From: Planctomycetota bacterium
GTDB lineage: Bacteria; Planctomycetota; Phycisphaerae; UBA1845; UTPLA1
Direction: 5' to 3'
NCBI GenBank assembly: GCA_016235815.1
Contig: JACRIM010000060.1
Span: forward strand, 62,001-126,000
DNA length: 64,000 nucleotides
Below are positions 43,821 through 49,706 of this stretch, piece by piece. A program made the translations under genes and the position numbers. Below the pieces are notes generated by a model. That model was not told the DNA's origin, did no database searches, and was given only the letters and a program-made list of their open reading frames with translations. Each line of letters opens with the position of its first letter. Within the stretch, counting starts at the first letter, position 1.

Positions 43821-44013
43821 TATAAGTCGATAGGATCAGACCGGAGATAAAGCACGATTCCTCGTTGTTCCTCGCGCATCGCTGCATACCGGACCCTTAT
43901 CGGACGACTTTTGCATTAAGCACGACCGCCGCCCACCCGATTCTGAATTGGATAATTGCAGATCGGCGCGGCTTTCGACGCTCGCCGCTGCCCCACCCGA
44001 CGAGGAGCACTCG

Positions 44014-45363
44014 ATGTCCGCAACGCTTGCGCCACCACCCAAACCCGGCTCACTCGCCGAGCCGTCCATCGGCATTCCAGTTCAGACGAAGGGCGCCACC
44101 CCTTTCATCCCGAAGCCGCCGCGGAACTTTGCCGAGGCCGGTCTCGACCCGGGCGTCGTCGAATCGCTCATTCTGAAATATCTGCTCGGTGTCGGTTCGG
44201 CGCAGGGCGCCCGCATCGCCGAAGAGCTTTGCCTGCCCACGCAACCGGTTATCGACTACCTCAGCATGTTGAAGACGCAGCAGATCGTCGTCTATACCGG
44301 CACCGCGCACCTCGACGATTTCAATTACACCCTCACGGATGCCGGCCGCGATCGGGCCCGCCGATTCATGCTTGAATCGCTGTACGTCGGCCCCGCGCCC
44401 GTCACCGTCGAAAAATACATCGAGGGCATTCGCGCTCAGACGATCACGACGCTCACCGCCCGAAAAGCCGATTTGGAGAAAGCGTTCTCCGATCTGCTCG
44501 TCAGCCAGGAGATGTTCGATGTCCTCGGGCCCGCCATCAACTCCGGCCGCGGCATGTTCCTCTACGGCTACCCCGGCAACGGCAAGAGCAGCATCGCCGA
44601 GCGCATCACCCGCTGCTTCGGTGACAACATCTACATCCCCAAGTGTCTGATCATCGATGGCATGATCATGAAGGTCTTCGACGCCGCCAACCACGAGGAA
44701 ATCCCGCGGAAGAAAGATTCCATCTTCAAGGCTGACATGATCGACGACCGGTGGGTGCAGATTCGCCGCCCCACGATCATCGTCGGCGGCGAGTTGACGA
44801 TGGAATCCCTCGAAGTTCAATACAACTCGACCAGCAAGACCTGCGAGGCGCCGGTCCAGCTTAAGAGCAACTGCGGAACGCTGGTCATCGATGACTTCGG
44901 GCGGCAGCGGATGAAGCCGATCGAGCTGCTCAACCGCTGGATCGTGCCGCTGGAGAAGCGCTTCGACTTCCTCAACATGCCCAACGGCAAGAAGGTTCAG
45001 GTGCCTTTCGACCAGCTCATCATCTTCTCGACGAACCTGGAGCCGAAGGACCTCTGCGACGACGCGTTTCTTCGCCGAATTCCGTACAAGATCAACGTGC
45101 CGAACCCCGAGGAGCTTGCCTTCCGGAATCTCTTCGCGCTGGTCGGGCCGAAGATGGGCTTCGAGATGAACGACCAAACCCTGAAGGCCATCGACTACCT
45201 CGTGGACACGCACTACAAAAAGAAGGACCGCCCCTTCCGCTGCTGCCAGCCGCGCGACCTGCTACTCCAGATCCGCAACCGCTGCCTGTACATGGGCAAG
45301 CCTCTGGAAGTCACGCCGGACCTGTTCGATTACGCGGCGTCGGTATATTTCACGATCATGTAA
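44014..45363 (+). CDS. AAA ATPase with N-terminal winged-helix-like region
   Basis: A 449-residue AAA protein. The N-terminal part (about 40-130) looks like a winged-helix module (LILKYLLGVGSAQGARIAEEL...). The ATPase core has Walker A GYPGNGKSS near 188, Walker B LVIDDFGRQR near 292, a sensor-like FSTNLEP and RRIPYKINVPNP. GAGGAG lies six bases before the ATG. Similar predicted ATPases occur widely in planctomycetes without known role. It stands alone with no obvious partner. Confidence 0.82.
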   Translation: MSATLAPPPKPGSLAEPSIGIPVQTKGATPFIPKPPRNFAEAGLDPGVVESLILKYLLGVGSAQGARIAEELCLPTQPVIDYLSMLKTQQIVVYTGTAHLDDFNYTLTDAGRDRARRFMLESLYVGPAPVTVEKYIEGIRAQTITTLTARKADLEKAFSDLLVSQEMFDVLGPAINSGRGMFLYGYPGNGKSSIAERITRCFGDNIYIPKCLIIDGMIMKVFDAANHEEIPRKKDSIFKADMIDDRWVQIRRPTIIVGGELTMESLEVQYNSTSKTCEAPVQLKSNCGTLVIDDFGRQRMKPIELLNRWIVPLEKRFDFLNMPNGKKVQVPFDQLIIFSTNLEPKDLCDDAFLRRIPYKINVPNPEELAFRNLFALVGPKMGFEMNDQTLKAIDYLVDTHYKKKDRPFRCCQPRDLLLQIRNRCLYMGKPLEVTPDLFDYAASVYFTIM

Positions 45364-45599
45364 AGGTGAACGATCGGTTCCCCCTCGGTGTGGCATGGAT
45401 GAATGGGTCGGGAGGCATGGGTCAACTTTGTTAGCCCGTGGAGTTCTCACCAGCGGTCGGACAAAAAAGCTGAATGCCCCTGATCTACCGCCCGGCTGGT
45501 TTGCGTAGAAAAAACTACCCCCACAAAAAAGTGCGAAAAACCGTTTTACCGCGCACAAAAGCGCACAAACGGTTTGCGTGAGTTTTGGATCGACTTGGA

Positions 45600-45905
45600 T
45601 CACACTTCGAAGGCTCGGCCACAAAAAACGGGAGGTACCCGCAAATAGCCGCAAATCGCGGTTTTTGGGCCCAAGAAAGTGCAACTTGTTGCGGGTGTGA
45701 GGCACCTGGAGCCGCAACTTGTTGCGGGTGTGGATTGGGGCGAGCTGAAGCCGCAGCTTGCGCGGATGGACGCCGATTGGGTTGGAAAAGAAAAAACAGC
45801 CGGCATTTGCCGGCGTTTGCCGTCGTCCACCACCGGCGGATCATTCGATTTGCTGACACGCTCCCGTTGGGACTGAGAGAACGCGAATTGGGCCCGGGCA
45901 GTCAT
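45600..45905 (-). CDS. Possible small orphan protein
   Basis: A 101-residue frame with a proper expression start: AAGGAAG seven bases before the ATG, behind a -35/-10 pair. The product is rich in Ser, Pro, Arg and Cys and contains two copies of TPATSC. I recognise no domain. An overlapping frame on the same strand (45515-45859) carries two HPQQVA copies, so the protein repeat could simply reflect the DNA repeat. Real coding is doubtful. Confidence 0.3.
   Translation of the reverse strand: MTARAQFAFSQSQRERVSKSNDPPVVDDGKRRQMPAVFSFPTQSASIRASCGFSSPQSTPATSCGSRCLTPATSCTFLGPKTAICGYLRVPPVFCGRAFEV
45681..45732. repeat. Tandem 19-bp repeat containing a GCAAC-TT-GTTGC dyad
   Basis: The 19-bp unit at 45681-45699 recurs exactly at 45714-45732, a 33-bp period close to three helical turns. 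Each copy contains the inverted pair GCAAC/GTTGC. A diverged third copy begins near 45750. They could be paired protein-binding sites. Confidence 0.7.
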
Positions 45906-45946
45906 GGGCGACTTCCTTTCAGATCGATCCTAACTGTTACCTAACT

Positions 45947-45974
45947 AATATAGTGTCGCGGTCGGCGAAGGCAA
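45947..45974 (-). promoter_or_regulatory. Minus-strand promoter with 11-bp spaced GTTAGG repeats
   Basis: On the minus strand TTGCCT (45974-45969), 16 bp, TATATT (45952-45947). Just downstream two GTTAGG hexamers (CCTAAC on plus at 45929-45934 and 45940-45945) are 11 bp apart, one helical turn, overlapping the expected start point. It would drive RNA across the orphan region. Confidence 0.55.
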
Positions 45975-46096
45975 GGGAATTTTCGGATTATTTTTTCGAG
46001 GATCGTAAGGCTTGGGCCTGACGTGGGTTGGGGCAAAAAAGCCGGCGCGGTGGGCGGTCCGGCGCCAGCTAGTGTTCATCTACCAGTATTTTCAAC

Positions 46097-48928
46097 TTAC
46101 GGCATAGTCATTCCCAGTTCCGTGAGTTTGTTCACATAGGCTTGGAACTGCTCGCCCGTCGTCAACTCGCAGTCCAGGCCCCAACACTGCGAGAGGCTCC
46201 ATTCATAGAATGCCTCCCACGTCTCCTCGCTCGGGCCTTGAATCACCGTGGAAATGCCCGGTGCTTCGGCGTCAGTCAGCGCATCGGAGAAACCCGCTCC
46301 CTCACGGTCGCGGCTCTGATTCGGCGCGCGGCTCGGATGGCTGCCGGCGCGTAGCTCTTCCTCCTCACACTCATCCGGCACGCCGTTCTCGTTCGCATCG
46401 TCGCTGTATTCTGACGCGATGTCGCATTCATCGAGCGTTCCATTCTCATTGCAATCGAAGCTCCCATACGGCGGCGGCAGGGCCAGATTGCATTCGTCCG
46501 GCATTCCGTCCTCGTTGCAATCGTCACTGACGAACGTGTTGCCGTCGGGGTCGAGCGGGTCGATGTCGCAATCGTCGGGCACACCGTTTTCATTGCAATC
46601 AAGCTCGCACTCGTCTGGCGTTCCGTTAGCGTTACAGTCGTAGCTCCCCGCGAGACTGTTGCACGTGTTGCCTCCGCCGCAGGTGATGTCGAGATCATCC
46701 GGTCGGCCGTTCTCGTTGCAGTCCTTCTCACATTCATCGGGGATGTTGTTGCTGTTGGCGTCGTAGCTGCCCACGATTCCGCCGCAGGTGTTCCCGCCTC
46801 CGCACACGATGTCGGCACTGTCGGGCCGCGAGTTGATGTTGCAATCGGGTTGGCACTCGTCGGGTACGCCGTTGGCGTCGAGGTCGGGCGAGACGAGTTC
46901 ATTGCCGTCTGGGTCTTCGGTGTTAATGTCGCATTCGTCGGGGATGAGGTTGTTGTTACAGTCCTCGCTCGTTCCGTCAGCGATGTCGTTCGCGTCGGGG
47001 ACTTCGTTGGCGTTGCAGTCGGCGAGGCTTCGCGACTCGGTCTCACAGCTTGCACCCGCTAGAATGCGTTCGACGAATAACTGCACGTCCAATCCATTCG
47101 CTACACCATCCTCGTTGCAGTCCGCAGGGCAGATCAACGGGTATCCTGTGACAATATCCAAACAGCGAGGAACACCGGTGTTGCCAAGAAGTGTTGCAAC
47201 AAAAAGCGGCACGTCCACCAAGTTAACCGAGCCATTGCCGTCCATGTCGCCCTTGCAGCAGGTGTTGTTCGTATCGAGGACGTCCGCATAGCCCGCCGGA
47301 AGTTTTGTGAAATAGACTTGGTTGTTATTCCGGCAACAGTAGGGGCTGATCGGAATCGGATAATCGACCGCCGTCCACACACAGACGACTTCACCTTCGC
47401 GCCCATATCGAATGGTGTGTTGATTGCTGTTGGCGAGGCGGCGTTGAATGACGTTTGTTCCTCCATAACCGTTTGCGGTCGTGTCCTGATTCACCCGGAA
47501 ATTCGCCCCCATTGGTCGCCCGTTTTCAAAGTACTGAGCGAGAATCTCATCCGCTGAGCCGCTCGGGGCACCCGCGTTGTTGGTCCACGCCGCGATCCAA
47601 CGGCCATTGCCCTCACGGCTGATGGCCACCGTAGGACTGGCAACAGTGGGGTTGTAATTGCTTTGCGGAGGCGCATTGATAATGAACTCCGGTGAGATGG
47701 GGTAGGGCGCCGTCGCGCCGCCTGCCCATTTAAATCGGCGGGCGAAGACCTTGGCGTGATTCTGATTGCACGGACTAGGCAACGGGTCGCCATTCCAAAC
47801 CACTACAACATCGCTTCCGAAGAAATCGACAGCGGCAGAGAATTGAATGCTCGGATTGGCCTCAATGGTCGTGTCGTTCACGATGATTCCGTCGCCGCCG
47901 ATGACGCGATTGCCGCTCGAATCGACCATGTCTAAATGGATGTTGAAGGCGTCATTATTGAAAGAGCTTTCGGCATGAGCCCATAACACAACCGAATAGC
48001 CTTGATCCGTCGCAATGCAGGGTTGCCAGAGCGATTGCAGCCGGTCAGCACACGGTGATGCCCCTCCACAGTCGACAGAATCGAGTATGGTGGTTATTCC
48101 CGATCCCGGCGTTCGTGCAAAGCGAAGCGTCTTAGTCACGTCGCCGGTTGGACCGTATTCGGTGTAGGCCGTCGTCCGCAGGACGCTTGACAAGTAGGAG
48201 ATTCCAGCGGAGGGAGTGTAGTTTCTGCGAGTGGTCGTGGGCGTGGGCGGATTCGCAACGGGCCACGTGGCAGGATCATCGGTTTCGTCAAAATCCGCGA
48301 CAAGCAGTTCGCCGAAATATGCGCCAACGTCCGTGGTCAGCGTGTTACCGCTGCCGACGCCCGTCCATGCGACGCGAACCTCATGGCCGGTGATCGCAAT
48401 GGAAGGAGTGGCGTGCGTGGTGTTGCCGGTGATCTGCGGGTCCGCGAATTGAATAAGGCCCGACACCGTCCGAGGTCCATTGAGGCATTCCCCATCGGCA
48501 TCAAAGCGGGCGACAAGAATCTTGTAGTAATTGACCTGGCCCTCGTACTCGATAGGCACGCAGCCGTTGATGAATTCATCCGATCTCCATGCTACAAGAA
48601 ACGAATTGTCGGATTCACTGGAGTCGTCGATGGCGACGCTGGCACTTTCACCGCGCGTGAAGGCTTCGTCATAATTGGCCGGTTGAGAGCTGGCCGGGGC
48701 GACTCGACCCTCGATGATGCCGCTGCCGTACGTCGTTGGTGACGCGGCGCAGGGATGCTGGTAATACTCACAATCGTCCGCGAAAGAGGTTGCAGTAACG
48801 GCGGTCAAGCCGAGCAGAAGACCCAATGCGGCGACGAACCAAAATCGCCGCCGCCGCTCAATGGCCCTTCCGTCGTTCGTTTGAGTGGGTTGTTTTCGAT
48901 GTTTGAATTCGAGAGAACAGCGGGCCAT
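46097..48928 (-). CDS. Exported repeat protein with dockerin-like and calcium-type repeats
   Basis: A 943-residue exported protein. I chose the ATG at 48928 because of GGAGG upstream; a signal segment (WFVAALGLLLGLTAVTATSFA in outline, about 30-50) follows a basic N-terminus. Residues about 50-560 form a beta-rich domain of repeated VAWT/VVWN strands. Next come a dockerin-like pair (KGDMDGNGSVNLVDV and ADCNEDGVANGLDV) and about nine DCNENGxPDECDI-type repeats resembling calcium-binding thrombospondin type 3 or EF-hand loops. An unusual segment APNQSRDREGAGF interrupts the end, before a final 50-residue domain. It overlaps the upstream PEP-CTERM frame by 71 bp. Confidence 0.82.
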   Translation of the reverse strand: MARCSLEFKHRKQPTQTNDGRAIERRRRFWFVAALGLLLGLTAVTATSFADDCEYYQHPCAASPTTYGSGIIEGRVAPASSQPANYDEAFTRGESASVAIDDSSESDNSFLVAWRSDEFINGCVPIEYEGQVNYYKILVARFDADGECLNGPRTVSGLIQFADPQITGNTTHATPSIAITGHEVRVAWTGVGSGNTLTTDVGAYFGELLVADFDETDDPATWPVANPPTPTTTRRNYTPSAGISYLSSVLRTTAYTEYGPTGDVTKTLRFARTPGSGITTILDSVDCGGASPCADRLQSLWQPCIATDQGYSVVLWAHAESSFNNDAFNIHLDMVDSSGNRVIGGDGIIVNDTTIEANPSIQFSAAVDFFGSDVVVVWNGDPLPSPCNQNHAKVFARRFKWAGGATAPYPISPEFIINAPPQSNYNPTVASPTVAISREGNGRWIAAWTNNAGAPSGSADEILAQYFENGRPMGANFRVNQDTTANGYGGTNVIQRRLANSNQHTIRYGREGEVVCVWTAVDYPIPISPYCCRNNNQVYFTKLPAGYADVLDTNNTCCKGDMDGNGSVNLVDVPLFVATLLGNTGVPRCLDIVTGYPLICPADCNEDGVANGLDVQLFVERILAGASCETESRSLADCNANEVPDANDIADGTSEDCNNNLIPDECDINTEDPDGNELVSPDLDANGVPDECQPDCNINSRPDSADIVCGGGNTCGGIVGSYDANSNNIPDECEKDCNENGRPDDLDITCGGGNTCNSLAGSYDCNANGTPDECELDCNENGVPDDCDIDPLDPDGNTFVSDDCNEDGMPDECNLALPPPYGSFDCNENGTLDECDIASEYSDDANENGVPDECEEEELRAGSHPSRAPNQSRDREGAGFSDALTDAEAPGISTVIQGPSEETWEAFYEWSLSQCWGLDCELTTGEQFQAYVNKLTELGMTMP
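46295..46324. repeat. Probable dispersed repeat embedded in coding sequence
   Basis: The plus strand carries CGCTCCCTCACGGTCGCGGC and following bases, read on the minus strand as SRDREGA. From experience this nucleotide motif and its translations recur in many unrelated planctomycete proteins and intergenic regions, as a short interspersed palindromic-type repeat. Only one copy is in this window, so repeat status rests on prior knowledge. Confidence 0.5.
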
Positions 48929-49706
48929 GCGGTGCCTCCTTGCGGCATCTTGTCCCCCAACCATGGGATGAAGCGGAATCGAAACCACTTCGATACCGCG
49001 ATGAAACCAAACGTCGCCGCTTTTGACGCGACGAGAACGCCAATGCTATGAACAAAGTTGCGATTGTGGACGGCTCTGGAACATCGCTGAGTTGAAAAGC
49101 GAGGTTAACACCATTTCTGTAAGTCCAGCCGGAAACATCAGGGTTGATTCCTGCAATGGTATCGCCCGGCGCATTCGAAAACTCCCACCGAAACACGCTC
49201 TGCGGACTGCCCACCTGGACGATCTCCATCCAATACCGCGTCGACGCCGAGGCCGAAAAGGGAGTAGTCAAGTCAACATCAAACTCGTACTCACGCGCTC
49301 CGGTCGTGAAATCGACCGTACGGCCGGTCGACACGCGCGTTGGATTTAGGAACGACTCTTCGTATAGCATCGAGCCCGGAACGCCGTTATCGCCGGTGTC
49401 GTCGTAGAAACGAATGCGCATCACCTCGTCGCCCGCCGGCGGAAGGATTTGGCTGCCGCCTCCCCCGCCGATATTCCCGTAGAACCCCCACCACTTCACA
49501 TGAGCTACCGTTGCGCTCGTCGGCAACGTGAAATCATCCGCCAACAGTTGCCAATAGGGATCGCCGAATAACGTCACGAACTCCGTGTCAGCGGATGGGC
49601 CGTTGAACATGGGCGGATGGTCGACAATGATCCCGGCCTCCGCGCGCGAAGCAGCGCCCACGATCAGCGCCAGAACCACCACCATAATTCCAGTGATTCG
49701 TCTCAT
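48858..49706 (-). CDS. PEP-CTERM protein with an abnormal C-terminal extension
   Basis: A 282-residue exported protein. The ATG at 49706 begins a signal peptide (ending ASRAEAG). A beta-rich domain follows (FYDDTGDNGVPGSMLYEES, YWMEIVQVG), typical of planctomycete PEP-CTERM proteins. The sorting signal VPEPSTIATLFIALAF and its basic end RQKRRR occupy about residues 208-232, where such proteins normally stop. The frame instead runs on for 50 residues, into the first 71 bases of the downstream gene. The extension looks like a lost stop codon or a shifted frame. Confidence 0.75.
   Translation of the reverse strand: MRRITGIMVVVLALIVGAASRAEAGIIVDHPPMFNGPSADTEFVTLFGDPYWQLLADDFTLPTSATVAHVKWWGFYGNIGGGGGSQILPPAGDEVMRIRFYDDTGDNGVPGSMLYEESFLNPTRVSTGRTVDFTTGAREYEFDVDLTTPFSASASTRYWMEIVQVGSPQSVFRWEFSNAPGDTIAGINPDVSGWTYRNGVNLAFQLSDVPEPSTIATLFIALAFSSRQKRRRLVSSRYRSGFDSASSHGWGTRCRKEAPHGPLFSRIQTSKTTHSNERRKGH

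Follow-up and report, generated by a model that had tools for sequence, protein, structure and literature searches.

A dispersed family of intergenic cassettes with a predicted LexA-controlled promoter in a planctomycete genome

Introduction

Why does a gap between two convergent genes carry signals for expression on one strand and no recognisable gene behind them? The question is raised by a 733-bp region at positions 45364-46096 of the window, a stretch of 64,000 nucleotides from a Planctomycetota bacterium. The gap is flanked by the 3′ ends of a plus-strand gene (43948-45363) and of a minus-strand dockerin-type gene (46097-48988), so that its limits are those given in the original prediction, which was made from the window sequence. 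That prediction described an orphan region with a minus-strand promoter, a ribosome site and a competing set of poorly coding frames, and offered a new small gene, a regulatory RNA or a decayed element as readings. From comparison with related sequences we propose, with moderate confidence, that the region represents one member of a set of dispersed intergenic cassettes, restricted to the lineage, that carry a LexA-controlled promoter and no conserved product.

Results

Signals on the minus strand of the gap

The features read in the gap are listed below, with positions counted in the window.

45364-46096, no strand: gap holding one copy of the dispersed element, between ORF ends 45363 (+) and 46097 (-)
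46026-46031, minus: upstream half-site CCAACC (module U), the left limit of conservation in the alignment of 16 copies
46005-46009, minus: upstream half-site CTTAC (module U), 22 bp or two helical turns from CCAACC
45980-45999, minus: A/T-rich stretch upstream of the -35 hexamer, from the sequence and the promoter alignment; we take it to be UP-like
45969-45974, minus: -35 hexamer TTGCCT, from the promoter search
45947-45952, minus: -10 hexamer TATATT, from the promoter search
45929-45945, minus: predicted LexA box, direct repeat GTTAGG-TAACA-GTTAGG with an 11-bp period, at the predicted transcription start
45912-45919, minus: ribosome-binding site AAAGGAAG, 6 nt before the ATG at 45905
45600-45905, minus: 101-codon open frame from the conserved ATG (ORF list), not a conserved protein
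45799-45814, minus: terminator-like hairpin GCCGGC-AAAT-GCCGGC followed by a T run, within the 10-bp tandem repeat GGCAAACGCCGGCAAATGCCGGC
45627-45696, minus: dispersed block C, 70 bp, 94% to 87% identity at other places
45642-45628, minus: second terminator-like site, inside block C, from the terminator search
45493-45587, minus: tail module T, hairpin-forming, with phased T runs, ending in GGGGGTAGTTTTTT (20-row alignment)
45390-45454, no strand: separate short dispersed repeat of GGCATGGGTCAAC type, outside the element, with matches at several places

The promoter that had been described is present, TTGCCT-16-TATATT (45974-45947, minus strand) giving 9/12 consensus matches; taken alone it is unremarkable, since one such promoter was found against 0.5 expected in shuffles. 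The box at 45929-45945 follows TATATT (45952-45947) directly, the predicted operator overlapping the promoter or its predicted start point; the motif scan returned it as the only site in the window with two or fewer mismatches. The ribosome site with its ATG and 101-codon frame was confirmed, and so were the A/T-rich patches and repeats. The hairpin at 45814-45799 is peculiar to the window copy: the related blocks read in other copies keep a tandem repeat and a T run, with an altered stem. A sequence similar to the GGCATGGGTCAAC-type repeat was seen after the phage head operon described below.

A dispersed repeat family

The region is not the orphan it had been taken for. Its sequence matched 62 places in the own genome (4.58 Mb in 60 contigs; E up to 10), and the copies are built from modules in fixed order and orientation: the U half-sites come first, then promoter P1, then a ribosome site with its ATG, and after these a mosaic body and tail T. 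The promoter-operator pattern CTATATTWGTTAGGTANNNGTTAG, with up to three mismatches, occurred 16 times in this genome, with no occurrence of the reversed control, and profile R1 of the same module matched 22 places. We count about 21 copies of this type-1 promoter module, which the alignment shows to be directional and about 105 bp long. No type-1 copy in the own genome clearly heads a real gene. Cassette copies were found at contig ends, where the assembly broke. Terminal inverted repeats, a MITE trait, were looked for at the conserved ends of one copy, that of the window, and none was seen. A plasmid copy (no match) and a viral copy (no exact promoter pattern in viral contigs) were both rejected.

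Other repeats accompany the cassettes. Heptamer tandem repeats of the CTCAGGA, GGGAACG and AGGCACA types fill cassette bodies and other intergenic stretches (L012, L016, L036, L040). On contig C4, the second promoter copy ends abruptly at a GTAG-REP-like palindrome, CGTAGGGTGGGTCGTACTCGACCCACC, which cuts it off (L010, about 2130-2160); a relative of this palindrome stands before the cassettes on C24 and C44 (L113, L114). Another palindrome, GTTCCACGTGGAAC, which is presumably parS-like, lies at seven places in the genome (including L113, L114, L116, L117 and L119) and adjoins related repeats with a TTGTTWGGTTTTAGTTA-like motif at the five places read.

Conservation was measured on 16 aligned type-1 copies that had been gathered with a pattern spanning the -10 and the operator. 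Mean column identity reached 99% for the -10 and 98% and 89% for the two operator halves, values owed in part to this selection, against 46% for the operator centre. The -35, the spacing, module U and the ribosome site lie outside the collecting pattern. Here the CCTTGCC columns of the -35 averaged 98%, and the U half-sites 93% (CCAACC) and 88% (CTTAC), with 48% in the flank outside U and 69% in the promoter spacer; the distance from TTGCC to TATATT was identical in 15 of the 16 copies. The operator halves stood 11 bp apart in all 15 measurable copies, and a ribosome site with an ATG 5-8 nt further on was present in 12 of 16. Tail T, in its 20-row alignment, had a mean column identity of 67% and ended in GTAG only in some copies.

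A second promoter type and a phage head operon

Tail copies that lack P1 carry another module, promoter type 2, with the core GAAAC-N2-YGAGCAAGATTGATAGGYGT. Allowing three mismatches, this core was found at 28 places in the own genome and nowhere in 113 other genomes of the order; profile R2 had 52 matches in the own genome (G000) and gave weak matches in 3 other genomes (17 searched). The type-2 module has the same U half-sites as type 1, the 22-bp distance between half-sites was read in its alignment too, and some copies carry CCAAC, CCTAAC and CCTAC at an 11-bp period.

Only two type-2 copies clearly head real ORFs. One precedes an operon encoding terminase large subunit, head protease, virion protein, major head protein and head-tail adaptor, a terminase-to-head gene order that we take to be Mu-like. 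This operon stands isolated (L173, 5698-12791, minus strand), with no recognised tail genes within its 16-kb stretch, and could be a gene transfer agent or a prophage remnant. The other copy, on C56, is followed by a short ORF and then a second ORF, neither with a PHROG match. In three further type-2 copies the frames are leaderless and 386, 509 and 508 codons long (codon scores +0.20, -0.02 and -0.17), and one copy, at L043, has a 223-codon frame (+0.14).

An apparent insertion sequence lies in the type-2 core at one constant point, GAAACnnYGAGC ^ AAGATTGATAGG. Nine contig ends (C6, C7, C23, C40, C46, C51, C52, C57 and C43; loci L207-L214 and L216) run from the left half of the core into one identical sequence; at five loci (L215, L223, L224, L018, L017) the right half leads into a second sequence, nearly identical among them. 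Judged from these junctions, it appears to be a site-specific insertion sequence with the type-2 repeat as its target.

The operator as a predicted LexA box

A search of the own genome for operator GTTAGGTANNNGTTAGG, with at most one mismatch, gave 18 sites: sixteen in type-1 cassettes, one in a type-2 cassette (C58:142851) and one at C28:20444, where an imuA-like gene begins 16 nt further on (ImuA model match of 44 bits, below the curated cut-off of 150). The frame that follows this gene is presumably imuB-like. Among relatives, the operator motif was found upstream of imuA at 7 of 10 loci, with 1-3 mismatches, and was missing from the other three (G006, G014, G038; 6 mismatches). These 10 loci come from 14 rows, after two pieces of a split gene in G016 and two weak matches had been left out.

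The lexA gene (PF01726) was found in 39 of 41 genomes; that of the own genome is at C35:131072. Immediately in front of lexA there is no box; locus L251 was excluded from this inspection and from the two flank scans that follow. When 1.5-kb flanks were scanned at 27 loci, the P1 motif (up to three mismatches) occurred upstream of lexA at 16 and downstream at none. The generalised motif GTTHGG-N5-GTTAGG, formulated after this result was seen, occurred with at most one mismatch upstream at 25 of 38 loci (16 of them perfect) and downstream at none of the 38; all 25 upstream sites point in the direction of lexA, and 13 of the 38 loci have no such site. They precede the lexA match by 400-1031 nt and stand before an upstream gene, and an operon with lexA is assumed for this reason. 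The own-genome site, which touches the beginning of the ORF preceding lexA, has one mismatch to the generalised motif and three to the P1 motif. On these positions taken together, the direct repeat GTTAGG-N5-GTTAGG is probably the LexA (SOS) box of the host bacterium.

Integron attC sites had been considered on the ground that GTTAGGY presumably fits the attC core box; they were set aside once lexA and imuA proved to carry the motif. In genome G060 (L166), a promoter-operator site with three mismatches lies upstream of a DNA polymerase frame that we take to be of the Y family.

Tests of the body for protein and RNA

The poor coding character that had been noted was borne out. The 101-codon frame scored -0.20 bits per codon, its codon use being unlike that of host genes; three competing frames scored -0.27 to -0.33, and the two neighbouring genes +0.43 and +0.19. 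Reading-frame use differs among copies, whose bodies are mosaic. Seven copies could be aligned over their start and show 194 codon differences there, 178 of them non-synonymous and 16 synonymous; between the window and its nearest copy, the differing sites fell at codon positions 1, 2 and 3 in numbers of 8, 12 and 14, and there was no excess of change at third positions among copies. Forward-strand stops numbered 16, 20 and 13 per frame against about 27 in shuffles, a depletion in all three frames. A Pfam search with the 101-residue frame, one of the checks suggested with the original prediction, gave no match. On the negative codon score, the Pfam result and a frame and peptide that are not conserved among copies, a protein-coding gene was rejected, and the proposed new small gene is not supported.

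The regulatory RNA reading received no positive support either. An Rfam search gave no match, and a known Rfam family was rejected. Covariation, also suggested as a check, was sought in the tail alignment: the consensus fold has 4 pairs without any compensatory change and gives no support to the tail as a conserved RNA fold. Relative to shuffles, folding was better for the tails of certain copies (z of -2.7 and -2.9) and no better for the leader-to-terminator stretch (z of +1.0).

Distribution among relatives

Profile R1 matched in 8 of 114 genomes of the order. Beyond the own genome, there were eight matches in G008, three in G001, two in G034 and one each in four others. G008 belongs to another genus of the same family, and its cassette set has diverged: read by eye, six of its eight matches have both operator halves after a stretch resembling TATATT, and several carry TTTGCG units of 10 nt in tandem and, downstream, a run of A. 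When the ORFs that neighbour R1 matches of G008, G001 and others were compared, no cassette position common to G000 and G008 was seen; the translated ORFs matched G000 loci at several places, namely large repeat proteins and other genes. The 41 genomes searched include no other species of the host genus. Among 84,980 named genomes, from which the own and near genomes may have been left out, the exact type-1 pattern had one match, in a cyanobacterium, which is taken as chance.

Discussion

At the sequence level, the copies make up a repeat family with a fixed promoter geometry, a common operator and no protein conservation; LexA binding, induction by damage and the length of the RNA are predicted. 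Each cassette opens with a strong promoter of sigma-70 type, and the direct-repeat operator lies over its predicted start point; a ribosome site and start codon usually come next, then a fast-changing mosaic body and often a T-rich tail. LexA bound over the start point would keep the promoter shut, and DNA damage would remove it and free the promoter. In the window, a short minus-strand RNA would then begin at about 45940 and may end at the hairpin 45814-45799 or continue to the tail. The original interpretation is thus partly upheld, LexA control having not been foreseen in it. Its decayed element is the nearest of its readings, because the region is a dispersed repeat, but plain decay looks unlikely because the promoter, operator and translation start are the parts best conserved among copies.

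The cassettes might have no present function or meaningful regulation at all, as purely selfish or dead non-autonomous copies of a mobile element that happen to retain a left-end promoter whose transposase or phage gene has been lost. They are intergenic and mosaic, they sit at contig ends where the assembly broke, and in recognisable form they are limited to the own genome, G008 having a diverged set. We consider this rather unlikely, given motif positions that are nearly fixed while spacers vary by about 30%, a constant promoter spacing, and no inverted-repeat ends in the window copy. Alternatively, the copies may act as decoys that hold LexA and set the SOS threshold, the transcript being a by-product. 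Such a reservoir fits the 17 of 18 operator sites (at most one mismatch) that lie in type-1 or type-2 cassettes, the other being at imuA; the ribosome site, the ATG and the fixed -35 spacing, however, are all kept although a decoy could do without them, which makes the idea quite improbable.

Two other explanations place the function in the transcript. SOS-induced small toxic or regulatory peptides, made from the conserved ATG in the manner of TisB, an SOS-controlled type I toxin, would agree with the presence of a ribosome site with ATG in 12 of the 16 copies and with the low number of stops (16, 20 and 13 against about 27 per frame). The stops are depleted in all three frames and not in the ATG frame alone, codon scores are negative, and the seven copies compared yield no common peptide (178 non-synonymous against 16 synonymous differences); we regard this account as very unlikely. 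Like TisB-type toxins, the cassettes combine a promoter of LexA type, here predicted, with a small frame and several intergenic copies; unlike them, they have no conserved peptide. Equally hard to credit is a structured regulatory RNA that terminates at the T-rich tail. The strong promoter, the terminator-like sites at 45814 and 45642 and the better-than-shuffled fold of some tails (z -2.7, -2.9) speak for it, against the lack of an Rfam match, a four-pair tail fold without compensatory change, a leader-to-terminator z of +1.0 and an unconserved body.

Under the reading we prefer, a cassette with a LexA-controlled promoter and no conserved product, the cassettes may be a selfish remnant, a LexA reservoir or a source of variable short products. 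As their origin we favour a phage-like mobile element inducible by the SOS response, of which they would be non-autonomous copies or leftovers. SOS-inducible Mu-like prophages and gene transfer agents exist, and the type-2 promoter that precedes a Mu-like terminase-to-head operon resembles them; nearly all cassettes, in contrast, have no phage gene. A more far-reaching and unlikely proposal is that about twenty type-1 and some fifty type-2 LexA-controlled promoter/ribosome-site/ATG cassettes are selectively kept while their encoded content is free to change, giving SOS-dependent variable short transcripts or peptides or a LexA reservoir, and that they derive from or are tied to an SOS-inducible Mu-like phage system.

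In the literature searched, outside which most subscription journals lie, we found no description of a planctomycete LexA motif, of the cassette repeat or of SOS-controlled intergenic repeats. According to excerpts of one report, the E. coli motif is not recognised by LexA of Planctomycetes (PMC3108266). Excerpts on Alphaproteobacteria give their LexA box as a direct repeat, GTTC-N7-GTTC, with GTT spaced 11 bp (PMC8565304, PMC9578287). The operator described here is similar to the box so given in having an 11-bp GTT direct repeat at a promoter and in lying upstream of lexA and imuA; it differs in its half-sites, GTTHGG and GTTAGG with N5, and, unlike the SOS regulons of Alphaproteobacteria as presented in those excerpts, most sites are at cassettes without a conserved gene. 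REP or GTAG-tagged palindromic repeats are, in the excerpt available, short, dispersed and intergenic, with Planctomycetes included (PMC3733652). The cassettes share these traits; the repeats so described are palindromes of 20-40 bp, whereas the conserved module here is a directional promoter. The GTAG-REP-like palindrome is a separate repeat adjoining one copy (C4b).

The analysis turns an apparently empty gap into a testable DNA-damage regulon. It supplies a candidate LexA box for a bacterial order without one in the literature searched, and a repeat family whose conserved part is not a gene but a controlled start for gene expression. If the proposal holds, one would have to ask why dozens of starts that are switched by damage and lead to no product are maintained in one genome, and these starts would be linked to phage genes.
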